A stretch of 64,000 bases of DNA from Candidatus Zixiibacteriota bacterium (GTDB taxonomy: Bacteria; Zixibacteria; MSB-5A5; WJJR01; JAJRUJ01), in the NCBI GenBank assembly GCA_020051695.1, contig JAGVQM010000011.1:186001-250000 (forward strand). Direction: 5' to 3'. Below are positions 28,994-41,671 of this stretch, one piece after another. The position numbers were made by a program, and so were the translations under genes. The notes below the pieces were generated by a model. The model searched no databases, was not told the DNA's origin, and saw nothing but the letters and a program-made list of their open reading frames with translations. Positions within the stretch are counted from its first letter, which is position 1. Each line of letters starts with the position of its first letter.

Positions 28994-29748
28994 GTCCCGC
29001 GGGGTACGAGCGGAACGGTCAGATTAGCGCGTTCGGCACAGGATACTGAATGAGCGGCGGTTGTTTGCTGAGTTCGTGGGTTTAGCACTCGGCACGACCC
29101 CTGGTGCGGGTCGTGTCTCCATCCTGTCGCGGGGTGATCAGCGGCGTTTACCAAGACCAGACTTTTGCCGAATGCTTCGCTACGGAATCAATCATGTGAA
29201 AAAAATTGCACATTTCATGTGTGTGACTTCATTCCGCTGCAAACAAAGACGTTTTTCTCTTGACAAAAACGACAATCGCTGCTAATTAGCTACTGTAGTG
29301 TTGTGGTTAAAGTTACCGGCGTTTTTTTATATCGTGGATTACGGGAGACATTACGGGAAGGGATTGGCGAAACAGTCCATGAGAGAAACTCAAGAATGCC
29401 GGCCGTATGTGACATCTATTCTCCGGAACACTAGTGCTTTGCCATGCATGGTGATAGCTATGCGGAGATCCATGTTTTTTTCTCCACATTACCTCCGGGC
29501 GCACGTGGGGAGCATGATCCGCGCCAGAGTATGAGTATTCGGCTCGGCAATTGCATTAGTGAAACGCTGGAGTTTTTGTGTATTGGTGCAAAATGGATCA
29601 TACAAGGTTATTGCGCCCGATGAATTCAGGTATTCCCAATTTTCCGGAAAGGGCGGCTTTCCGCAAAATGCCGGGATCGCTTCATCAATGTTTATGTACG
29701 ACAGCGAAGAGACAAACAAATAACCATTCAAATCTGGGAGGTGCAGGT
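28994..29748. other. Long leader/intergenic region before the giant secreted protein
   Basis: About 755 bases without a convincing gene. It contains an 8-bp inverted repeat CACGACCC/GGGTCGTG (29093-29115) without a T run, a TTGACA hexamer at 29260 and a small CTAC-T-GTAG palindrome at 29290-29298. The giant gene's frame stays open upstream to 29578, but the real start is at 29749. Confidence 0.5.
29260..29288 (+). promoter_or_regulatory. Possible sigma-70 promoter
   Basis: A perfect TTGACA (29260-29265) is followed at 15-17 bases by weak -10 candidates (GCTAAT or TAATTA near 29281-29288). It would give a leader of about 450 bases for the giant secreted protein. The -10 is poor. Confidence 0.25.
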
Positions 29749-32700
29749 ATGCGCCAACGCATCATTGTACTTCTGATGCTCGTACCCCTCGTGTTGTGTA
29801 CCACGACCGCCTTCGCCAGTTGGGGCGTGGAATTCCAATCGAAAACGGTCAATGCCGGCGATGTCGGTGTGACCGTGGGCGTCAAGGGCTACTGGAATCT
29901 GGCGATTTCCTCGATCAGTATCCCGGTGGTGGCCCGCAGCGTTTCCGGTGGAGCATTCTGGACGGGACCTTTGCCCTATGATACCGGTGGCAACGGGTAC
30001 TGGCACCCCTACGCGCAGGGCGTAACCTGGAGCTGGTTGTTCCCCTGGGCGGCGCTGCTGGAAGAATTCAATACGAAGAAACCGGTTGCTCCGTGCCCCA
30101 CGGAAGGTGATGTGGCTTACGATGCGATTTCGCCGGACCATTTTCTGATCGCCTCAGTTGGTTCCGGAGCGGCTCCGCCGGCTGAACCGGCCGGGCGGAC
30201 GTTTTGTACGTTCAGCTTCACGGCGGGAGCGACCGGAGGGACATTCGAATTCGACACGGCGTGTTTCACGCCGACCTTAACCACGCTGTCGATAATCGAC
30301 AACGCGTTCCCGCCGGTAGAACACGGGCCGTTGGGGACGAATGAGGCGTTCTTCAACAAAGGGATCATCACCATATCCGGCGGATCGCCCACGCCACCGG
30401 TGATTACCTGTCCGGCTGATCCGACGGTTGAAATCGGCCAGTTGGTGGATTTGGCGGTCACGGCGACTGATGATGGCTTGCCGATTGCACCGTTGACGAT
30501 GACCGCGGAGGATGTTCCCGGATTCCTTGGTTTCACCGACAACGGTGATAATTCCGGCAGCTTGACCGGGACGCCGGGGTGTGGCGATCCGGGGCAGTAT
30601 ACAATCCGGCTGATTGCCAATGACGGTGAGCTGGCGGATACCTGTTTTGTGATCGTGACGGTTAATGCGGATACCCAAGACCCGGTGTTGACCTGCGGTG
30701 GTGATGTGACGGTCGGCAATACGCCGGGTTTGTGTGAGGCGGTTGTCAATCTGACCGGCCACTCCACGGCCACCGATAATTGTCCCGGCGTGGTAGTCAG
30801 TTATGCTCCGGTTTCGGGTTCTACTTTCCCGAAGGGCACGACGCTGGTGACAGCGACGGCGACCGATGCTGCGGGCAATACAGCGACCTGCACGTTCAAC
30901 GTGGTTGTGCAGGACACCGAAGACCCGATACTGACCTGCGGCAATGACGTGACGGTCGGCAATACGCCGGGTTCGTGTGAGGCGATTGTCAATCTGACTG
31001 GCCACTCCACGGCTACCGATAATTGTCCCGGTGTGGTGGTCAGTTACAATCCGGCTTCCGGCTCCACCTTCCCGGTGGGCACGACGCTGGTGACGGCGAC
31101 GGCGACCGACGCCGCGGGCAATACCGCGACCTGCACGTTCAACGTGATTGTAGAAGACACCGAGGACCCAGCACCCAATTTCCCGGCTGAACTCGTTGTT
31201 GATGCCGATCCGGGCCAATGTTATGCCACGGTTGTATTCGACTTTACCGCCGCGGATAATTGCCCCGGAGAGATAACCATTGCCTATAATCCGTCCTCGG
31301 GTTCGACCTTCGATGAAGGTACGACGACGACCGTGGAGATGACGACGACGGATGCCGCGGGCAACTCGGTGACGAGCTTTTTCGACGTGACCGTGAACGA
31401 GGTCCCTCCCGAATTTGTTGCCGATCAGGCGTCGTTGACATTCAACTATATCGTCGGTGAGGCCGTGCCGCCGGCGCAGAATGTGAACATCACGAATGCC
31501 GGCTGCGGATCTTCCGATTTCTTTGTGGTTGACAATTTGCCGGCGTGGTTGTCGGTTACGCCGATGGTTGCCACTGCTCCGGCGGCGCTGGCGTTTACGG
31601 TCCAGGACCTTGGTTCATTGGCGCCGGGCACGTACACTTTTGATGTCGAAGTACATGAAAGTGTGCCGATTGCGTTGCTCGGCAAGCAGGCGCCGCTTTA
31701 CGTCGCAGTTACACTGAATGTTATCGGGCAGGAGAATATCGCGCCGATCATCGCCTGTCCGCACGATACCACATTGTATGCGGATCAATCGGTGGTGCTC
31801 AATGTATCGGCGACCGACCTGAACGGCGATGCCATCACCCTGGCCGTTGAGGATGCCGGCGGCGGGGCTTTGCCTGTGCAAGCCGCATTTGTCGACAACG
31901 GGGACGGCACAGGGACTTTTTCATTCATTGTCTGGTGCGCTGACCTGGGAAGCCGCACGCTCCGGTTCATCGCCAACGACGGCGAACTGGCCGACACCTG
32001 CTATACCGTGCTGACCATCGAGGATAACACGCCGCCGGAGGTCTATTGTCCATCAGACGAAAGTCAGTTACATTACACCGCTCCGGGCGTGTGTTATGCC
32101 ACCGCCGAATACGACGCATATGTCACGGATAACTGCACCGAAGAAGGCAATATTATCGTCACATTCGATCCACCTTCCGGTTCGCAGTTTGACGTGGGTA
32201 TCACTCAAGTAACCGCAACTGCCACGGATGAAAGCGGCAACAGCAGCACCTGCACATTCAACGTGACGGTGGAAGATCATCAAACACCGGAAGTTACGTG
32301 CCCCGGTGATATTACCATAGATGATGGTGGTAGCGGCACGGGTGCAGTCGTTAATTTCGACATCATTGTATCCGACAATTGCCCTGATCCCGAGGTCACA
32401 ATCAATTATCCTTCAGGTTCGTTCTTCCCGACCGGCACCACTGAGGTTACCGTTGATGTTTCCGACGCCCAGGGCAATGCGACCGGGTGCAGTTTCTTGG
32501 TTACGGTCAACCCGCCGGCTACACCGGTGATTATACTGGTGGATCCGAATCAGGCCGCGCAGGGTGATGACCTGACAGTCCATATTACCGGGTTAAACAC
32601 CTGTTTCGGCGAGGGCAGTTTCACGATTGTCGAGCTGACTCAGGGCAGTGCGACGATTACCGGGACCAATGTGGTGGTTTCCAGCCCAACCGAACTGGAT

Positions 32701-34542
32701 GTTGATTTTTCGATCCCCGGCGATGCGGCACTTGGCCTGTATGAAGTCGCCGTCGGCGAATCCGGCGGTTGCGGCGTCGTGGCCCTGCCGGACGGCTTTA
32801 CCGTCCTGGCGGGCGGCCCGACTGAAATCTGCGGCCAGGTGATCAACGTGGCCGGCGGCGGCCTGCCCGCACATGTGTCCCTCTGGGGGGCGCTGGGCGG
32901 TCTGATGGGTTCGGCCGACGCTGATGAGTTCGGCTACTTCTGCATCCCGGTGGACGCGGGCAATTACGATGTCCGTGTGACGCTGGCGGGTTATTGCACC
33001 GAGATCGTCCTGGGTATCCCGGCTCCGACAGAAGAGTTGCAGGTAGTTCTCGAGACAATCCCCAGCCCGGTCGTTACGCCGTATGTTGCCGATTACTGGA
33101 GTATCAATGCCACGCTCTACGGTGGTCTGTTGATGGTCGGTGATGTGATTACCGCATACGATCCGGATGGTGTCCTCTGCGGTGTGGCGTATGTCAGCGC
33201 GCCCGGCGAATACCTGATCCACGTGTACGGTGACGAGCCGGCGACGAGTCCGGGGATGGATGAAGGCGCCGAAGACGGCGATGTTATTACCTTCATGCTC
33301 AATTGCGAGTGCCCGCTGGAGGGCGCCAACCTCTGGATGAACCATCATTCCTACAATGAGGACCTGGCTTTCGAATGTGAGCGGATACAGGAAATCCCGC
33401 TCTGCGGCGATTGGACGCTGATTTCCTATAATGTCGTTCTGGCAGACCAGACACTGGAGAATGTCCTGTCTTCGATCGACGGCCAGTACGAACGGGTCAT
33501 CAGTTCACTGTGTGACGTCGGCGCCGTAACCTGGGCGGCCGGCCGGCCGGCGGAGTTGAACGACCTGACTGAGATGGACAACGAACACGGCTACTGGCTG
33601 TATGCGCCGGGAGTCGATGTCCTGACGATCACCGGGCCGCCGATTGCCGCGGATAGTCCGATTGCTTTGTGTGACGGCTGGAACGTGATCTCGTATCTGC
33701 CGAACATGCTGGACGATCTGACACATGCCCTGGGCTCGATCGCCGGAGATTATGAATACGTCATCGGCTTCGATTGCGAATACGGCGTGCAGACTTATGA
33801 TCCGGCGCGTCCCGAGTTCCTGAACGACCTGGTTTGTCTCCACCAGGGAGCAGGGTACTGGATTAAGATGGTCAATCCCGCGACGTTAACCTATCCGATT
33901 TCGGGTTATGCGTGTATCGGGACCACGACGATTCTGCCGCGGCCGGTCAACCTGACCCGCCATGTCACACCGACACCGTGGTCCTGCGATTTCTGGTCGG
34001 TCGGCAACCCCGGGGGCGCGGAAGCCGGAGCGATCATTACCGTCCGCGATGAGGACGGCACGGTCTGCGGCCAGAGTGTGGCCCTGGCTGATGGTGCGTT
34101 CCTGGTCCACGTGTACGGCGACGATCCGGCGACTCCCGCCGATGAAGGTGCGACCATGGGTTCGATGCTCAGCTTCGATATCGACGGTGTGACCGCCGAA
34201 ATCAGCGGCAGCGACCAGTGGGTCGAACGCGGTTCGCAGGAAGTGACCCTGCACCGTCCGGATTCAGCGGCGCAAACGCCGAAGACCTGGGTGCTGAACC
34301 AGAACTATCCGAACCCGTTTAACGCCGAGACAGTCATCAGCTTTGCGCTGCCGACGTCCTCGGATTGGAGCATCCGCATCTACGACATCACCGGCCGCCT
34401 TATCGATCAGCTGAATGGCCGGGCGGAAGCCGGACTGGTTTCGGTGAACTGGCAGGCGGTCAATGTACCGTCCGGTATTTACTTCTACCGGCTGAGCGCG
34501 GGTGAATTCACTGAAGCGCGCAAGATGACGCTGATGAAGTAA
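29749..34542 (+). CDS. Giant secreted multidomain protein: HYR/Ig repeats and T9SS-type sorting domain
   Basis: ATG 29749 follows GGGAGGTG at 5 bases and opens a signal peptide (VLLMLVPLVLCTTTAFAS), so the protein is about 1597 residues. Order of domains: cohesin-like N-terminal region (to about 220); Ig/cadherin-like domain (CPADPTVEIGQLVDL); three HYR repeats of 81 residues (about 311-553, each with DNCPG and FxxGTTxVTATATDAAGN); a BACON-like segment; a second Ig-like domain (CPHDTTLYADQSVVL); two more HYR repeats; an IPT-like domain; a carboxypeptidase-regulatory-like domain (EICGQVINVAGG); two related Cys domains (LCDGWNVISYLP); and a C-terminal sorting domain (NQNYPNPFN, IYDITGRLID, PSGIYFYRL). 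It should cross the outer membrane by the T9SS and act at the surface in adhesion or polymer binding. A strong terminator follows. Confidence 0.9.
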   Translation: MRQRIIVLLMLVPLVLCTTTAFASWGVEFQSKTVNAGDVGVTVGVKGYWNLAISSISIPVVARSVSGGAFWTGPLPYDTGGNGYWHPYAQGVTWSWLFPWAALLEEFNTKKPVAPCPTEGDVAYDAISPDHFLIASVGSGAAPPAEPAGRTFCTFSFTAGATGGTFEFDTACFTPTLTTLSIIDNAFPPVEHGPLGTNEAFFNKGIITISGGSPTPPVITCPADPTVEIGQLVDLAVTATDDGLPIAPLTMTAEDVPGFLGFTDNGDNSGSLTGTPGCGDPGQYTIRLIANDGELADTCFVIVTVNADTQDPVLTCGGDVTVGNTPGLCEAVVNLTGHSTATDNCPGVVVSYAPVSGSTFPKGTTLVTATATDAAGNTATCTFNVVVQDTEDPILTCGNDVTVGNTPGSCEAIVNLTGHSTATDNCPGVVVSYNPASGSTFPVGTTLVTATATDAAGNTATCTFNVIVEDTEDPAPNFPAELVVDADPGQCYATVVFDFTAADNCPGEITIAYNPSSGSTFDEGTTTTVEMTTTDAAGNSVTSFFDVTVNEVPPEFVADQASLTFNYIVGEAVPPAQNVNITNAGCGSSDFFVVDNLPAWLSVTPMVATAPAALAFTVQDLGSLAPGTYTFDVEVHESVPIALLGKQAPLYVAVTLNVIGQENIAPIIACPHDTTLYADQSVVLNVSATDLNGDAITLAVEDAGGGALPVQAAFVDNGDGTGTFSFIVWCADLGSRTLRFIANDGELADTCYTVLTIEDNTPPEVYCPSDESQLHYTAPGVCYATAEYDAYVTDNCTEEGNIIVTFDPPSGSQFDVGITQVTATATDESGNSSTCTFNVTVEDHQTPEVTCPGDITIDDGGSGTGAVVNFDIIVSDNCPDPEVTINYPSGSFFPTGTTEVTVDVSDAQGNATGCSFLVTVNPPATPVIILVDPNQAAQGDDLTVHITGLNTCFGEGSFTIVELTQGSATITGTNVVVSSPTELDVDFSIPGDAALGLYEVAVGESGGCGVVALPDGFTVLAGGPTEICGQVINVAGGGLPAHVSLWGALGGLMGSADADEFGYFCIPVDAGNYDVRVTLAGYCTEIVLGIPAPTEELQVVLETIPSPVVTPYVADYWSINATLYGGLLMVGDVITAYDPDGVLCGVAYVSAPGEYLIHVYGDEPATSPGMDEGAEDGDVITFMLNCECPLEGANLWMNHHSYNEDLAFECERIQEIPLCGDWTLISYNVVLADQTLENVLSSIDGQYERVISSLCDVGAVTWAAGRPAELNDLTEMDNEHGYWLYAPGVDVLTITGPPIAADSPIALCDGWNVISYLPNMLDDLTHALGSIAGDYEYVIGFDCEYGVQTYDPARPEFLNDLVCLHQGAGYWIKMVNPATLTYPISGYACIGTTTILPRPVNLTRHVTPTPWSCDFWSVGNPGGAEAGAIITVRDEDGTVCGQSVALADGAFLVHVYGDDPATPADEGATMGSMLSFDIDGVTAEISGSDQWVERGSQEVTLHRPDSAAQTPKTWVLNQNYPNPFNAETVISFALPTSSDWSIRIYDITGRLIDQLNGRAEAGLVSVNWQAVNVPSGIYFYRLSAGEFTEARKMTLMK
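30679..31164 (+). repeat. Tandem 243-bp coding repeat (HYR units)
   Basis: Two adjacent 243-bp (81-codon) units start at 30679 and 30922 and are nearly identical in DNA as well as protein, including GTGACGGTCGGCAATACGCC in each. A third unit starting at 31165 is diverged. The similarity suggests recent duplication or gene conversion within the surface protein. Confidence 0.85.
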
Positions 34543-34721: not shown

Positions 34722-34737
34722 AACTAAATAATTAGTT
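34722..34737. promoter_or_regulatory. Inverted repeat AACTAA-ATAA-TTAGTT, candidate BlaI-type operator
   Basis: A perfect 6-bp inverted repeat with a 4-base spacer that overlaps the -35 hexamer of the next promoter. A second, weaker one (CTTAA-TTCT-TTAAG, 34777-34790) lies past the -10. BlaI/MecI repressors bind such dyads at their own promoters. The regulator is inferred. Confidence 0.5.
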
Positions 34738-34764
34738 GAACTTTTTATTAGAATCACGTATATA
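34736..34764 (+). promoter_or_regulatory. Sigma-70-type promoter of the blaI-M56 operon
   Basis: TTGAAC (34736-34741), a 17-base spacer, then TATATA (34759-34764), in an AT-rich stretch before the BlaI-type gene. Confidence 0.55.
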
Positions 34765-34791
34765 TAAAGAAATGTTCTTAATTCTTTAAGA

Positions 34792-34813: not shown

Positions 34814-35191
34814 ATGGCCAGAAAAAAGACCCCCACACTGACGGAAGCCGAGTCGCGGTTGATGGAGGTTGTCTGGGAGATGGGCGAAGCGACAGTGAAC
34901 GAAGTTGTCGCCGCGCTCCCGGAGGGCAATCGCCCGGCGTATAACACCGTTTTGACCTTGCTGCGCATTTTGGAGCAGAAGGGCTATTTGCGCCATATTA
35001 AGGAAGGCCGGGCGCACGTCTATCGGCCGCATATTTCGCGCAATCAGGCGCGGCGGCAAGTGGTGCGTCACATGGTGCGGAGCTTTTTTAACGACTCACC
35101 CGAACTGCTGCTATTGAGCGTCCTGGAAAACGAAAAATTGACCGCCGCGGAGATGGAGCGGCTGAAGAAGATGATACAAACCAGTAAATAG
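34814..35191 (+). CDS. BlaI/MecI/CopY-family transcriptional repressor
   Basis: A 125-residue winged-helix repressor (LTEAESRLMEVVWEMGEATVNEVV, PAYNTVLTLLRILEQKGYLRH, GRAHVYRPHISRNQARR) with the dimerisation helix at the C-terminus (LLLLSVLENEKLTAAEMERLKKMI). Length is normal for the family. In known systems the repressor is removed when a membrane M56 peptidase (BlaR1/MecR1) senses a signal, and an M56 gene follows after 8 bases. No beta-lactamase is nearby, so the target is different here. Dyads upstream suggest autoregulation. Confidence 0.93.
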   Translation: MARKKTPTLTEAESRLMEVVWEMGEATVNEVVAALPEGNRPAYNTVLTLLRILEQKGYLRHIKEGRAHVYRPHISRNQARRQVVRHMVRSFFNDSPELLLLSVLENEKLTAAEMERLKKMIQTSK

Positions 35192-35199
35192 AGGATGTC

Positions 35200-38100
35200 A
35201 TGGAAACCCTGTTCAACTTCCTCAGCGAACTTTCCCACGGGAGCATGGGTCTGGCCCTGAACGGGATGTGGTTGGGCATGGCGTTAACGGGCCTGTCGTG
35301 GTTGGGCTGGCGCCTGTACAAGAAGTCCAACGCGGCCACGGGATATGTTGTCTGGTGGTCGGTATTGGCGGCAGTGATCGCTGTGCCGTTTTTGATTACC
35401 GGGCCTGCCGTCGAGCGGCTCAGATTCCAGACAGAAGAACAGGTCTCCGCGGCAACAGGATTTGTCGACCGGCTCGAACCGACGAGTCTGGTTCCGCGCA
35501 GCAGATTGTTCGGCCCTGAGCCGGGCAATCGCGGAGTCCATGTGGGGACTGCCGAGATCAACCGCATCATATTGCCGGCGGCGAACGAAAGTATTCCGCG
35601 CCAATACGCCGCACTGGACGGCGGTTTTGTCATTCCCCGGGAAAATGAATCGGTCCCCTCAATGCTGCTGCGGTTGCTACCGGTGTCGTTGTTCGGCATC
35701 TGGATCTGCATTTCGCTGATTTTGATTTTGCGGCTGATCGTGGCCTATCGCCGGATGGTGGCGATCAAGCAAGGCAGCACACCTTATGATATCAAGGATC
35801 TCGACCGCATCACCGAGTTCGTCCACCGGTCCCCCGGCAGGACAGCGGCGGTGCATCTTTCCTCCCGTATTGATGTCCCCATGGCGGCGGGCCTGGGCCG
35901 GCCGATAATTCTGCTCCCGCGCAAATTGGTGGGCCGCCTCAACCAGGGCGAACTGGAGGCGTTGATCATTCATGAATTTTCACACATTTTTCGCTGGGAC
36001 GACTGGACCAAACTCGGCCAAAGGATCATCGAGGCGCTGATGTTTTTCAATCCTGCCGTACGCTGGATTGGGCGCCGGCTCGATCTGGAACGGGAAATCG
36101 CCTGTGACGACCGGGTCGTCGAACATCTCGGCAACCCCGGCGAGTACGCCCAATGCTTGACCCGCCTGACCCAGCTGTCGGTCATGCCTGCCGGGGCGTC
36201 GTTGATCCCCGGTGTTCTGACCTCGCATAAGCAGATATTTCAGCGCTTCGAGCGGCTACTTGGCGGCCGGCATGATCGCAGCACCCGGTTCTCTCGTCGG
36301 GGTTTCCTGGGAGCGTCGGTGGTGATCGTGGCAGCCCTGGCCGTGACGGTCCGAGTGGCACCGGTTGTGGCTATCCCCGTTCAAGCGGTGACCTTTGACG
36401 AATTATCCGCGGAATTCCGAACGTTCGGCGAACACGTGCTTTCAACTGTACTCACCGAAGACCTGCCGGGTGCCGAAACACCTGTCGTCCGGCAATCTGA
36501 TTTGGCCGTTGACGATGAGGGGCTTGACCCCGCGGGGGGGACGAATCCCGGGGCGCGTGAAGAATTACTTGCAGAACCGCCCCCCGGCATCCCGGTAAGC
36601 GCACTACCTCCGGTATCCACCACCGAATGGCCAGTCGTGGAATACGCCATGACGAGCGCTGCCGGAGAATCCGGCGCGGCGAAGGCCCGTGCCGAAGCCA
36701 CGGGTCGTGATGGTCGCACCGCCGGGCGCGTTGTTGATTGGAACGACGAAATTTTCAAACTGCCGATCTCGGGCACAATCCACGGTTACGGCGATAATAA
36801 CGAAGCCATCCATGTCTGGATCGATGAGAAACGAGAAGTCCGCGCGGCAGCGCAGGGCCGCATTCGGCTCACGCCGGACGGCAGCCAGATAAGAAGTGTT
36901 TCTGTCGGCGGGTATCTGGCGATCAAAGAACAACATGGTTCGATCTGGCGGGAATTGGACATTACACCGGTTAATGGCAGCCAATTGGCCTATGTGTACT
37001 ATGTAGACGGCGCACCGCACGAATACGACGCGGCGGCCAGTGCCTGGCTGACCCGGGTCTTGCGCATGATGTATCCAGATATGGCCGTACTGCATGGTGG
37101 GGTAATTGCCGATTACCCGGCTCCGGATATTGTTCATCCTGTTCCTGCTCCGCTCGACAGTCCGGATGTAGCGGACCTCCCCGACATCGATGCGCCGGGC
37201 GCACCTCCGGCCCGGCATTTTGAGACCCAGGGGCTGCTGAGCACGATTTTTGACTGGGCGATGGATCCATTTGACGGTTTTGGCGAAGGCCTGATGATCT
37301 CGCATGAAGATGATGACGATCAGATGGACATTTGCTGGTCGGACGGCCGCGACAAAATCCGGATCAAGATGGACGGTAAGATCGAATTTACCGACGACGA
37401 CCGGGCAATTAAAAAGATTTCCCCGGATGGGTATTTCGCCATCTGGGAAAAGCACGACGGCCGGCGCCGTGAGTACGACGCCGAGGCAGGACCGGACGGC
37501 CGTCTTGTGGCGGCTTATTATGTCGACGGCGAAGCGCGGGAAATCGATGACGACGCCCGTGCATGGCTGGGTGAGGCCCTGTTGAAAATGTTCCGGGAAG
37601 CCGGAATCAATGCCGAGGCCCGGGCCAGGCGCATCTACAAACAAGACGGCATCGCCGGGGTTTTGCAGGAGATCTCGCTCATCGACAGCGATTATGCCAA
37701 ACGACAATATTTCGATGCCCTGCTCGATTCAGACGAATTGAGTGACGCCGACTACTCGACAATGCTGAGACAGATCGAACGTGAGTTGGAGTCCGACTAT
37801 GAAAAGGCAGAACTACTAATGGACATGGCAGACCGGGTCAGCCGGAATACACCACTGATCCGCGATTATATTGCCGTTGTCCAAACGATCGAATCCGATT
37901 ATGAAACGCGCCGTGTGCTTTCGGCCATGAGTATGGGGGAGGATGTCGACGATGATATACTTCTGGCCGTGCTGGAGATCGCCGCGGGAATGGACTCCGA
38001 CTATGAAAAAGCCGAACTACTGATCGACATGGCCCCCTATTGTCGGGGCCGCGGGGATTTCCAGGCGGCATATGTCGCTGCGGTTATCAATCTCGGCTCT

Positions 38101-38841
38101 GATTATGAGACCCGGCGTGTGCTTTCCGCGTTGAGTCTGGATCAAGACACCGACCCGGCAATCCTGCTGGCGGTATTGAAGATTGCGGCGCAGATCGGCT
38201 CGGATTATGAACGGGCGGAGTTGTTGATCGAACTGGCGCCCCATTGCCGCGACAATGCCCAGTTGCAGGCCGAGTATGTGAACGCCATCATCGACCTTGA
38301 ATCGGATTATGAAACCCGCCGCGTGCTCAGCGCGCTGAGTATGGACGGAGATGTAGACCCCGAAGTGTTTATTGCAGTACTGGATATCGTCGGCGGATTG
38401 GAATCGGACTATGAAAAGGCCGAACTGCTGGTCGAGATCGCCCGGCGCAGCAGCGCGTACGATAAGGCCCGGGAAACCTACCTCGCAGCGGACAACGAGG
38501 GAAGCGATCTCGACTATGAGCGCGCGCGGCAAGCGTATGTGGCGGCGGTGACGAACATCGATTCGGATTACGAAACCAAACGCGTCCTGACTGAATTGAT
38601 CACCAACAGCGAGCTGAATGACCGGCTGGTGGTGGATATCCTGGGTGTGACCGCGGGCATTTCCTCCGATTACGAAAAAAGTGAAGTGTTGAAATCACTG
38701 GTAAAATACTGCCGCGGCAACGACCGGCTGGAAGAGGCCTTCTTTGAAGTTGTCGATGGAATGTCCTCTGATTACGAGATCAAGGAGCTTTACGCCCTGA
38801 TGTATCGTGACTCGCGGCGTTCCGGCGACCGATACAAATAG
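35200..38841 (+). CDS. M56 (BlaR1-type) membrane metallopeptidase with C-terminal S-D-Y repeats
   Basis: A 1213-residue protein. Membrane helices lie at about 20-40, 47-65 and 165-190, with another near 370-390 after the protease. The zinc motif is HEFSH (His258, Glu259, His262), with EREIACDDRV downstream as in BlaR1. The usual penicillin-binding sensor is missing. After a Pro/Asp-rich linker come two copies of a beta-type domain (about 525-630 and 705-800; each has a V/I-W/K-D...G-Y-(L/F)-A-I-x-E core and YYVDG). Then, from about residue 829, there are eleven S-D-Y-(E/A) helical units of about 35-37 residues, alternating SDYEKAELL and SDYETRRVL. These look like HEAT-type repeats, probably a ligand- or protein-binding surface. 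It is paired with the BlaI-type repressor upstream and ends at a strong terminator. Confidence 0.88.
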   Translation: METLFNFLSELSHGSMGLALNGMWLGMALTGLSWLGWRLYKKSNAATGYVVWWSVLAAVIAVPFLITGPAVERLRFQTEEQVSAATGFVDRLEPTSLVPRSRLFGPEPGNRGVHVGTAEINRIILPAANESIPRQYAALDGGFVIPRENESVPSMLLRLLPVSLFGIWICISLILILRLIVAYRRMVAIKQGSTPYDIKDLDRITEFVHRSPGRTAAVHLSSRIDVPMAAGLGRPIILLPRKLVGRLNQGELEALIIHEFSHIFRWDDWTKLGQRIIEALMFFNPAVRWIGRRLDLEREIACDDRVVEHLGNPGEYAQCLTRLTQLSVMPAGASLIPGVLTSHKQIFQRFERLLGGRHDRSTRFSRRGFLGASVVIVAALAVTVRVAPVVAIPVQAVTFDELSAEFRTFGEHVLSTVLTEDLPGAETPVVRQSDLAVDDEGLDPAGGTNPGAREELLAEPPPGIPVSALPPVSTTEWPVVEYAMTSAAGESGAAKARAEATGRDGRTAGRVVDWNDEIFKLPISGTIHGYGDNNEAIHVWIDEKREVRAAAQGRIRLTPDGSQIRSVSVGGYLAIKEQHGSIWRELDITPVNGSQLAYVYYVDGAPHEYDAAASAWLTRVLRMMYPDMAVLHGGVIADYPAPDIVHPVPAPLDSPDVADLPDIDAPGAPPARHFETQGLLSTIFDWAMDPFDGFGEGLMISHEDDDDQMDICWSDGRDKIRIKMDGKIEFTDDDRAIKKISPDGYFAIWEKHDGRRREYDAEAGPDGRLVAAYYVDGEAREIDDDARAWLGEALLKMFREAGINAEARARRIYKQDGIAGVLQEISLIDSDYAKRQYFDALLDSDELSDADYSTMLRQIERELESDYEKAELLMDMADRVSRNTPLIRDYIAVVQTIESDYETRRVLSAMSMGEDVDDDILLAVLEIAAGMDSDYEKAELLIDMAPYCRGRGDFQAAYVAAVINLGSDYETRRVLSALSLDQDTDPAILLAVLKIAAQIGSDYERAELLIELAPHCRDNAQLQAEYVNAIIDLESDYETRRVLSALSMDGDVDPEVFIAVLDIVGGLESDYEKAELLVEIARRSSAYDKARETYLAADNEGSDLDYERARQAYVAAVTNIDSDYETKRVLTELITNSELNDRLVVDILGVTAGISSDYEKSEVLKSLVKYCRGNDRLEEAFFEVVDGMSSDYEIKELYALMYRDSRRSGDRYK

Positions 38842-39152: not shown

Positions 39153-40274
39153 ATGGGTGTATTCATGGAAGTTATCGAATGGATGGACCTTACGTCGGAG
39201 GACATGATCCACCGCATCCCCGAACAGGGTTCCCTGGATATAAAATTGGGCGCACAGCTTATCGTCCGCGAAAGTCAGTCGGCGGTGTTTTTTTCCAATG
39301 GGAAGGCCTGCGACGTTCTCGGACCGGGCCGGCATACGTTGACGACCTTGAATATCCCGGTACTGACCAAGCTCCTTTCGATCCCGTGGGGTTTCAAATC
39401 CCCTTTTCGCGCCGAAGTATATTTCATCAATCACAAAGTCTTTACCAACTTGAAATGGGGCACCCGTGACCCGGTGGCCTTCCGCGACAGTGAACTGGGG
39501 CTGATCCGGTTGCGCGGCCATGGCGCCTATACTTGCCGGATCAATGAACCGCTGGTCTTTTTAAACCGGCTGGTGGGACGGCAGGCCTTGTATTCGACGG
39601 CCGATATCGAGGATTATCTGCGGGATGTCATCGTCGCGCGGGTCAACGATATGTTCGGCGAAAACCTTTCGACGATCCTCGATTTGCCCCGGCAATATAC
39701 CGAATTGGCTGAAGAAATTAAACAACTCATCGACAGTGAGTTCACCAAGTACGGCATGGAGCTGGTCGATTTCTACATCACGGCGATTACGCCGCCCGAT
39801 GAGGTCCAGCGGATGATCGACGAGAAATCGAGTATGACCGCGGTCGGCGACCTGGACCAGTTCCTGAAATTCGGCATGGCCAAAGCATTCAGTTCCTCCG
39901 GCAGCAGCGGACTGCCCAGCGCGGGCGCCGGTCTGGGCATGGGCGCTGGCGTGGGTTTGATGGCCCCGCTGATGATGTCCAGGGCGCTGGCCCCGGGACA
40001 AACCGATTTCAAGAATATTGCCCTGCCGACGATCACCTGCACCCGGTGCGGGGTGGACACGCCGGAGGAATCCCGTTTTTGTTACAAGTGCGGTCATCCG
40101 CTGATCAGCATCAACCGTTGCGGCAAGTGCTCGGCGGAATTGCCGGCCGATGCGATATTCTGCCTGCAATGCGGGCAGAAGCTGGCCGAGGTTTTAACTT
40201 GTCCGGAATGCAATCAGAAGCTGCCCGACGGGACAAAATTCTGCACACGCTGCGGGACCAAGCTTGAGCCATGA
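39153..40274 (+). CDS. SPFH-domain protein with three C-terminal zinc ribbons
   Basis: A 373-residue protein; ATG 39153 follows GAGGAG. Residues about 20-240 match the bacterial SPFH family annotated as virion-core-like (GSLDIKLGAQLIVRESQSAVFFSNGKACDVLGPGRHTL, FTKYGMELVDFYITAITPP). A Gly/Ser-rich flexible stretch (about 250-275) leads to three zinc ribbons, each CxxC-x10-12-CxxC (CTRCG/CYKCG, CGKCS/CLQCG, CPECN/CTRCG). SPFH proteins form membrane-associated or cytoplasmic rings; the ribbons are probably protein-binding. The next gene overlaps it (ATGA), so the two form a pair. Confidence 0.85.
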   Translation: MGVFMEVIEWMDLTSEDMIHRIPEQGSLDIKLGAQLIVRESQSAVFFSNGKACDVLGPGRHTLTTLNIPVLTKLLSIPWGFKSPFRAEVYFINHKVFTNLKWGTRDPVAFRDSELGLIRLRGHGAYTCRINEPLVFLNRLVGRQALYSTADIEDYLRDVIVARVNDMFGENLSTILDLPRQYTELAEEIKQLIDSEFTKYGMELVDFYITAITPPDEVQRMIDEKSSMTAVGDLDQFLKFGMAKAFSSSGSSGLPSAGAGLGMGAGVGLMAPLMMSRALAPGQTDFKNIALPTITCTRCGVDTPEESRFCYKCGHPLISINRCGKCSAELPADAIFCLQCGQKLAEVLTCPECNQKLPDGTKFCTRCGTKLEP

Positions 40275-41671
40275 GGACCACGGGCGGCTATCGGCTGGAC
40301 ATTACCTGCTGCTTTTGCGGGGGCAAGCTGGATGTTGATGAAGCGGGCCACACGATTGACTGCCCGCATTGCGCGTCGATTTTAAAAATCACGCGCACGT
40401 CGGGGACCCGCAAGTATGTTATCCCCGACGGGTTGCTCCCGCGCGAAGTCAAGTTTCATATCGAGCGGCACATAAAAAAGGAAGGGTTGCCGCTGCCGTC
40501 TCACTGGCAGGAGTTGAAACGGGTCTATGTGCCTTTCTGGCGGGTGACGGGGACGGTTTTCGCCATGGCCACAGCGCCGGACAATTGCCGTAAAGAATTG
40601 TTTGATACGGATACAGGCGAAACGGAGGAAAGCCCCGCCCCCGGCGTGACGATTACCAACCGCGATGTCTCGTTTTGTGCGGACGAAACGTTCAACTGGG
40701 GTGTCGAATCGTTGGGCGTGCGTACGCAGACTTTGCACCTGGCGCCGCTCGAAAAAGAATTTTACGAAAACAACCAGCTGCTGCCCCCGGTATTGTCCCT
40801 GGAACAGGCCAAAGACCGCTTCGACCGGGCTACGACGATGGCCGCGATCACGACTGCAGATGTCGGCGCCGACGTGCAGATTACCTCGGTGGGGTTGGAC
40901 GGCACGTTGATTTACTTCCCGGTCTGGGCGGCAAATTTCATCAACGCCGAGGGCCGGCGGACGGTGCGGTTCGATCCGCTGGCCAAACGAGTCGTTACCC
41001 TGGATTACGGTGACGCAGAGGTCCCCGGAGGCAGGGCGACATTTACCCAGGACACAGCGGCGATACGAATCATCCCGCACCGCTGCCCCAACTGTGGTAC
41101 CGACCTGCCCAATGCCCGGTGGTCGGCGACTTACTATTGCGCCAACTGCCGCCGGTTATATATGGAGGCCGCCAACGGCTACCAACAGTTGACCGTGCAT
41201 GTTCCGGAGAACCGCAATGTCAAAGATATGCTGTTCCCGTTTTGGGTCTTCAATCTGCAGTCCGCTGACTGGCCGGGGAAAGATGAATTCCTGCGCGCCC
41301 TGCAGCTGACCCGGTACCGGAATGATGCGTTTTATGTCCCGGCATTCGGCGTGGCCAATCCCGAACGGTTGATGCGCCTGGTCGGGCATTATAACCGCCG
41401 GATGCACCAGTTTACCTTCAAGGAAATCCCGGACGAAAAATACACCTTTGCGGATGTTACGGTTTCGCCTGAACAGGCCGCCTGTCTGATCATTCCCCTG
41501 ACTGCGGCGGCGGTGGCGCAGGCCGGGTATCCCCCGCCCGAGGCGCTCCATGGTGCGGTGCTGGACATTGCGGACCCGGATTTAATCTGGCTGCCGTATG
41601 CCCCCGACCGTTATTTCTGGCGCGAACAGATCACCGGCGCGACAATTGAAAAGGCGGCGGTGCGCTGCTGA
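40271..41671 (+). CDS. Zinc-ribbon protein of unknown function, paired with SPFH protein
   Basis: A 466-residue protein whose ATG overlaps the SPFH stop. It opens with a zinc ribbon (CCFCGGKLDVDEAGHTIDCPHC, Cys pairs at about 13-16 and 32-35) and has another mid-protein (CPNCGT, YYCANC, about 275-297). Between and after are mixed alpha/beta segments with repeated YxPFWR/FPFWVF-like aromatic motifs (YVPFWRVTGTVF, MLFPFWVFNL) found in zinc-ribbon proteins with DUF-type annotation. No catalytic motif, signal or membrane segment is evident. Its coupling to the SPFH gene suggests a physical partner. Confidence 0.75.
   Translation: MRTTGGYRLDITCCFCGGKLDVDEAGHTIDCPHCASILKITRTSGTRKYVIPDGLLPREVKFHIERHIKKEGLPLPSHWQELKRVYVPFWRVTGTVFAMATAPDNCRKELFDTDTGETEESPAPGVTITNRDVSFCADETFNWGVESLGVRTQTLHLAPLEKEFYENNQLLPPVLSLEQAKDRFDRATTMAAITTADVGADVQITSVGLDGTLIYFPVWAANFINAEGRRTVRFDPLAKRVVTLDYGDAEVPGGRATFTQDTAAIRIIPHRCPNCGTDLPNARWSATYYCANCRRLYMEAANGYQQLTVHVPENRNVKDMLFPFWVFNLQSADWPGKDEFLRALQLTRYRNDAFYVPAFGVANPERLMRLVGHYNRRMHQFTFKEIPDEKYTFADVTVSPEQAACLIIPLTAAAVAQAGYPPPEALHGAVLDIADPDLIWLPYAPDRYFWREQITGATIEKAAVRC

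Follow-up and report, generated by a model that had tools for sequence, protein, structure and literature searches.

Introduction

BlaR1/BlaI and MecR1/MecI of Staphylococcus and Bacillus are the closest described counterparts of the system reported here. Their receptors are M56 metallopeptidases of the gluzincin type, with HExxH and ExxxD motifs 41 residues apart and the protease placed between the third and fourth transmembrane helices (TM3 and TM4); a BlaI-family repressor is encoded in the same operon, and the promoter carries dyads. The sensor is a class-D-like penicillin-binding domain, and these receptors are known almost only as sensors of penicillins. For Staphylococcus aureus BlaR1, the available part of one report gives the motifs as H201EXXH and E242XXXD, with a cytosolic protease and the sensor outside (PMC9834060). 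Here we describe a blaI–M56 gene pair in a window of 64,000 nucleotides (nt), the whole stretch of DNA analysed, from a Candidatus Zixiibacteriota bacterium (assembly GCA_020051695.1, contig JAGVQM010000011.1, positions 186,001 to 250,000). The pair shares the motif spacing, the predicted place of the protease between TM3 and TM4, the operon with a BlaI-family repressor and the promoter dyads, but not the sensor, which is predicted to be a beta domain followed by an alpha-solenoid; the unit is without a beta-lactamase or penicillin-binding protein gene, and the repressor gene comes first. In our judgement, blaI and the M56 gene probably make up a BlaI/BlaR1-type signalling unit of two genes that regulates itself and is equipped with an envelope sensor of a new kind.

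Results

An M56 protease on a BlaR1-like membrane layout

Peptidase_M56 (PF05569) was matched at amino acids (aa) 163–349 of the 1213-aa product with E = 6.1e-26 and a score of 91.7 bits, the cut-off being 31, and no other Pfam family scored above its cut-off in this protein. According to a profile search, this is the only M56 gene of the genome. An earlier note on this DNA, made from the sequence alone, had recognized a membrane peptidase with an intact HEFSH motif in the open reading frame (ORF) at 35200–38841, and the accompanying ExxxD is present as well, exactly 41 residues after HExxH in all 20 proteins examined, the window's included. By hydropathy, HExxH sits between TM3 and TM4 and the C-terminal module follows TM4, so placed that all residues beyond this helix should be extracytoplasmic; a weaker TM1 was read from the sequence near aa 18–40, where most relatives show a detected helix. 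The motif spacing and the predicted membrane layout are thus those of BlaR1, except that an extended C-terminal region takes the place of the sensor. Features of the locus are collected in Table 1.

Table 1. Features of the blaI–M56 locus, with window coordinates.
Feature	Coordinates	Strand	Remarks
Dyad O1 (AACTAAATAATTAGTT), putative BlaI operator	34722..34737	.	Overlaps the -35 box; conserved 5' of blaI at 11 aligned loci of the phylum
Sigma70-like promoter	34736..34764	+	TTGAAC (34736-34741), 17 nt, TATATA (34759-34764); putative promoter function
Dyad O2 (CTTAATTCTTTAAG), putative second BlaI operator	34777..34790	.	3' of the -10 box
BlaI/MecI-family repressor gene (blaI)	34814..35191	+	125 aa; Pfam Penicillinase_R PF03965, 1.8e-34
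M56 (BlaR1-type) membrane metallopeptidase gene with beta domains and alpha-solenoid	35200..38841	+	1213 aa; Pfam PF05569
Predicted TM2 (aa 50-68) to TM3 (aa 164-182)	35347..35745	+	Hydropathy; intervening loop poorly conserved in the alignment
Gluzincin site: HEFSH aa 258-262, ExxxD aa 299-303	35971..36108	+	Both motifs intact, spacing 41
Predicted TM4 (aa 374-392)	36319..36375	+	Hydropathy
First beta domain copy, aa 502-625	36703..37074	+	Profile match 2.9e-20; no solenoid directly attached
Second beta domain, aa 692-829	37273..37686	+	Nine strands and two helices, directly 5' of the repeats; AlphaFold2 confidence (pLDDT) 87.0
Alpha-solenoid of helical hairpins, aa 830-1213	37687..38838	+	Eleven SDY motifs and one LDY motif

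Does the C-terminal part conceal a beta-lactam sensor that binds penicillins as BlaR1 does? The pairing of M56 with BlaI would be compatible with such a function, but Pfam matched no transpeptidase or beta-lactamase domain in the receptor at E-values up to 1, the NCBIfam BlaR1 model covers only aa 150–389 (73 bits against a cut-off of 400), and the predicted fold is a beta domain with a solenoid. We consider a disguised beta-lactam sensor highly improbable, and rejected it on the ground that the receptor is without such a domain. The earlier proposal of a BlaI-linked M56 receptor with no penicillin sensor agrees with this outcome, the extracytoplasmic part appearing to be non-penicillin-binding. 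Its statement that no beta-lactamase is nearby likewise held for the 25 proteins of the window that were compared with Pfam, smaller ORFs being outside that scan. Judged by the sequence features tested, the chassis is the known M56/BlaI one, with its defining beta-lactam sensor domain absent.

The module is predicted to combine a beta domain with a solenoid of SDY hairpins

As previously remarked, the YYVDG motif of the beta domain occurs twice in the receptor, at aa 600 and aa 773. Of the eleven units that had been described as alternating between SDYEKAELL and SDYETRRVL, the number stands, with the LDY motif in addition, and the xKAELL/TRRVL alternation is present mid-array; the two outermost units, SDYAKRQYF at the start and SDYEIKELY at the end, match neither type. 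Successive motifs are 34 residues apart in 8 of 11 intervals, the remaining three measuring 35, 35 and 18, and aa 836–1213 hold ten SDY, a number above the maximum of three reached in 10,000 shuffled versions. Neighbouring hairpins alternate in type in 130 of 158 typed pairs from 22 proteins, mostly in the window's phylum, the alternation being largely lost elsewhere; in this survey units were chosen by motif pattern, which biases the S-D-Y frequencies upward, and chains were split at irregular intervals. At the DNA level the SDY codons vary from copy to copy, and Tandem Repeats Finder listed no tandem array across the solenoid, from which we conclude that the array is old and maintained at the protein level. 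A recent tandem duplication or an assembly artefact was rejected for the same reason, and because the same architecture is found in many genomes.

An AlphaFold2 model of aa 692–1213, built with eight relatives, has a mean predicted local distance difference test (pLDDT) score of 88.1 and a predicted template modelling (pTM) score of 0.79. It places a nine-strand beta domain before helical hairpins that continue up to the C-terminus, so that the repeat array, for which structure prediction had been suggested in the earlier note, emerges as a well-predicted alpha-solenoid. The stacked hairpins are like those of HEAT/ARM solenoids such as importin alpha and the PP2A scaffold, with VIA-align Z of about 10–12 for such chains, a value common among helical repeats; many solved helical-repeat chains fall at Z 10–14 and none stands out. 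Unlike the HEAT/ARM solenoids, the window's protein has 34-residue hairpins starting with SDYE, and the receptor gives no HEAT, ARM or TPR match in Pfam at E-values up to 1. For the beta domain, the best Foldseek hit to solved structures has E = 4.1e-3, with no match at E up to 0.001, and the best VIA-align Z is 6.5, with only weak p32-like and polo-box-like arrangements. A sequence search of the PDB gave a best E of 0.085, and neither beta domain nor solenoid has a name in Pfam or NCBIfam.

What might be the role of the SDY motif? Since S, D and Y take equivalent positions in the hairpins across phyla, the repeats could form a ligand-binding ladder along the solenoid, comparable to the asparagine ladder of armadillo proteins. 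Yet the serine is the residue immediately before the helix in 11 of 11 SDY units, as judged from motif positions and predicted helix starts, and S-x-x-E is a helix-capping box, so that SDYE can be explained by fold stability alone. Moreover, one locus (L090) has a DVY variant of the repeats and another (L091) is without the SDY series. A binding ladder therefore appears unlikely to us; on the predicted model the motif is best read as a helix N-cap rather than an established binding site, and it may be purely structural.

The L090 protein, a Planctomycetota M56 protein (L090:5190–9701) in which DVY repeats replace SDY, also has TM2 and TM3 separated by a very long loop that is acidic and rich in tryptophan.

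The module recurs in three phyla

Searches detected the module in 18 of the 132 Candidatus Zixiibacteriota genomes, in 6 of 398 of Pseudomonadota (the genome of the alphaproteobacterial locus L014 included) and in 6 of 246 of Planctomycetota (that of L012 included; G547 and G712 are marginal). BlaI, M56 and module occur together in 13 of the 18 genomes of the window's phylum, where the contig of G077 ends within the array. Another, G097, has M56 and module on a contig ending within M56, G004 has a free secreted form, and G013, G044 and G066 were left unclassed, being cut or broken (G013 and G066 on the N-terminal side; G044 is a fragment). Five of the six Pseudomonadota genomes have the BlaI–M56–module arrangement, in G461 with a stop that interrupts the array, and the sixth, G510, has a free form. 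Among Planctomycetota, G666, G689 and G589 have BlaI–M56, G589 with the beta domain only, and G133 and its near-identical relative G134 have a lipoprotein-like free form. A plasmid search gave no match. The module hence accompanies BlaI-linked M56 at 21 loci, and free forms are present in all three phyla.

Three free proteins consist of the beta domain and solenoid alone, with no protease or repressor found nearby. Read by eye, L046 (2731–4233) has a signal peptide, L013 (5740–7050; L012 is a near-identical relative) a lipobox-like LPSC, and L084 (5831–7096) an N-terminal hydrophobic stretch. These apparent export signals lend independent support to an extracytoplasmic location of the module. 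Such free proteins might serve the receptor form as ligands or decoys, or act as its partners.

The receptor gene is linked to blaI behind conserved promoter dyads

The repressor gene, which lies outside the interval treated in the earlier note, ends 8 nt upstream of the M56 gene, and a profile search of the genome brought up no other Penicillinase_R gene. That the peptidase might prove unlinked to blaI in relatives had been named as a possible refutation, which failed: blaI is directly 5' of the M56 gene at all 21 complete beta-domain BlaI–M56 loci, in three phyla, with gaps of -200 to 9 nt, the large overlaps being an artefact of taking the longest ORF. The gene 3' of M56 is convergent at 14 of 20 loci and on the same strand after 108–311 nt at the other six, with ORFs picked mechanically; the unit thus usually comprises two genes.

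Eleven loci of the window's phylum, the window's among them, can be aligned 5' of blaI over AACTAAnnAATTAGTT, TTGAAC, CGTATA and TAATTCTTTAAGAG, with 35 invariant columns. CGTATA and the TAAnTCnTTAA of O2 are each invariant in 11 of 11, and in the window the aligned elements span 34722–34790. At all five BlaI–M56 loci of Pseudomonadota, CTACANNTGTAG dyads, which we take to be the classical BlaI dyad, lie just 5' of blaI, twice in three of them. O1 and O2 are putative sites of BlaI binding and use as operators. Two dyads per promoter have been described for two BlaI proteins of Clostridium thermocellum (available part of PMC8457756), and by analogy the arrangement fits binding of BlaI as two dimers.

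How far does the repressor reach?

The genome of the window is 98.9% complete, and in it the exact 16-base O1 dyad AACTAANNNNTTAGTT occurs once, at the window locus, which was the outcome of the proposed search for genes with the BlaI dyad. With one mismatch allowed, the 16-base dyad occurs at 4 places, compared with 12 for the control. A search for the 18-base O2 that tolerated up to 3 mismatches gave one match, again at the window locus, compared with 1 and 2 for controls. With a single BlaI and a single M56 gene, this genome would fit a circuit in which BlaI targets its own operon alone. Since the receptor would then be the regulated product, the signal would set the amount of envelope solenoid, a scaffold or binder sensing its own occupancy. 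Genome G132 points the same way: a single BlaI gene is accompanied there by a single M56 gene, and the two CTACANNTGTAG present both belong to the promoter of this unit; a control pattern also occurred twice, so that the count elsewhere is simply nil and not an enrichment. The usual two-gene extent of the unit is likewise in keeping with such a circuit.

Several observations stand against it. BlaI sites can be degenerate, and the counts took only close matches. The 20-base O1 at 3 mismatches has one further, weak match in the window's genome (control 0), an intergenic site 5' of a gene for a secreted FG-GAP protein, which by sequence is the only candidate second target there. The window's own next gene lies on the same strand, 311 nt on. 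Other module-bearing genomes have more than one BlaI gene: two in G040, beside one M56, and four each in G050, G437 and G531, so that for these genomes the counts lend no support to the self-only picture. Finally, a one-operon BlaI regulon is not without precedent: the available part of PMC8457756 describes C. thermocellum BlaI_1845 as controlling only its own operon, through two pairs of inverted repeats, although that operon, unlike the window's, has further genes and the half-site is GACTAT. We regard exclusive self-control as unlikely, if worth stating.

Alternatively, BlaI might reach distant genes as well, through operators that have diverged; this would be an ordinary envelope-stress regulon whose sites escape simple pattern scans. 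In the classical systems a separate effector gene exists, according to the available part of PMC3305447, and in G437 a PF00144 serine hydrolase gene (L115:1535–2929), a possible BlaI target, is closely preceded by a perfect extended dyad, TACTACATATGTAGTA. However, since G437 has four BlaI genes, that site is ambiguous and may belong to another BlaI, and a second strong site was not found in the window's genome. We consider distant targets a substantial possibility, though not one to be counted on.

Other sites were discarded. Those resembling AACTAANNNNTTAGTT in G042, G077, G086, G087 and G088 are 5' of a TetR-like and then a TolC-like gene (names given by eye from the sequences) and resemble a TetR operator, an exact AACTAANNNNTTAGTT in G081 is terminator-hairpin-like, and an extra site in G531 adjoins another BlaI gene. 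Near position 1501 of L107, L100, L102, L103 and L104, tandem AACTAACnnGTTAGTT-like dyads precede TetR-like and TolC-like genes, and to judge by their sequence these look like a clean TetR operator family.

Discussion

Our analysis revealed a conserved gene order, intact catalytic motifs, a membrane layout based on hydropathy, a predicted module architecture and conserved promoter dyads. We propose the following model for a self-regulated BlaI/BlaR1-type unit. BlaI would occupy the two dyads around its own promoter, keeping the blaI–M56 operon low. Four membrane helices would anchor the M56 protein with its zinc protease facing the cytosol, while the last ~820 residues, comprising two beta domains and a HEAT/ARM-like solenoid, would face the cell envelope. 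This module may bind a ligand in the envelope, which would probably be a polymer, a peptide or a whole protein able to lie along the solenoid; the ligand-bound module would then activate the protease, which would cut BlaI and allow expression of the operon.

Some observations weigh against this model. Locus L092 carries the beta domain, the less variable part of the module, without repeats, which means that not all members need the solenoid. As the free secreted forms show, the module also occurs apart from the protease. Two of the 13 BlaI–M56 loci of the window's phylum (G098 and G099) are without the common dyads, and a TACA-type dyad was not seen at the two Planctomycetota BlaI–M56 loci scanned, of three.

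It is conceivable that BlaR1-type receptors in three phyla share the beta-domain-plus-solenoid sensor, that the repressor governs only its own operon in at least two genomes, and that the receptor acts as the sensor and at the same time as the only output, in a closed homeostatic loop setting the dose of an envelope-facing solenoid; taken as a whole, we find this doubtful.

What is the relevance of such a module on a BlaR1-like receptor? No description of SDYE repeats or of a solenoid on M56 peptidases was found in the open PMC literature, within which the beta-domain-plus-solenoid sensing module is new. Its recurrence on BlaI-linked M56 proteins in three phyla, and as free secreted proteins, suggests that the protease–repressor relay serves generally as a chassis on which envelope sensors can be exchanged. 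With the putative operators and one repressor identified, the way is open to direct tests of ligand, cleavage and regulon.

Genes flanking the blaI–M56 loci are common only to close relatives. In the window, the gene directly upstream of blaI (29578–34542) contains a 243-bp DNA tandem repeat and encodes a large protein in which five HYR-domain stretches are accompanied by a Por_Secre_tail sorting domain. Downstream of the receptor, the interval 39153–41671 holds the same-strand gene mentioned above, for an SPFH/Band_7 protein with zinc ribbons, and then a gene that overlaps it and encodes a 466-aa protein with zinc-ribbon-like stretches, a neighbourhood not conserved at that place in relatives.

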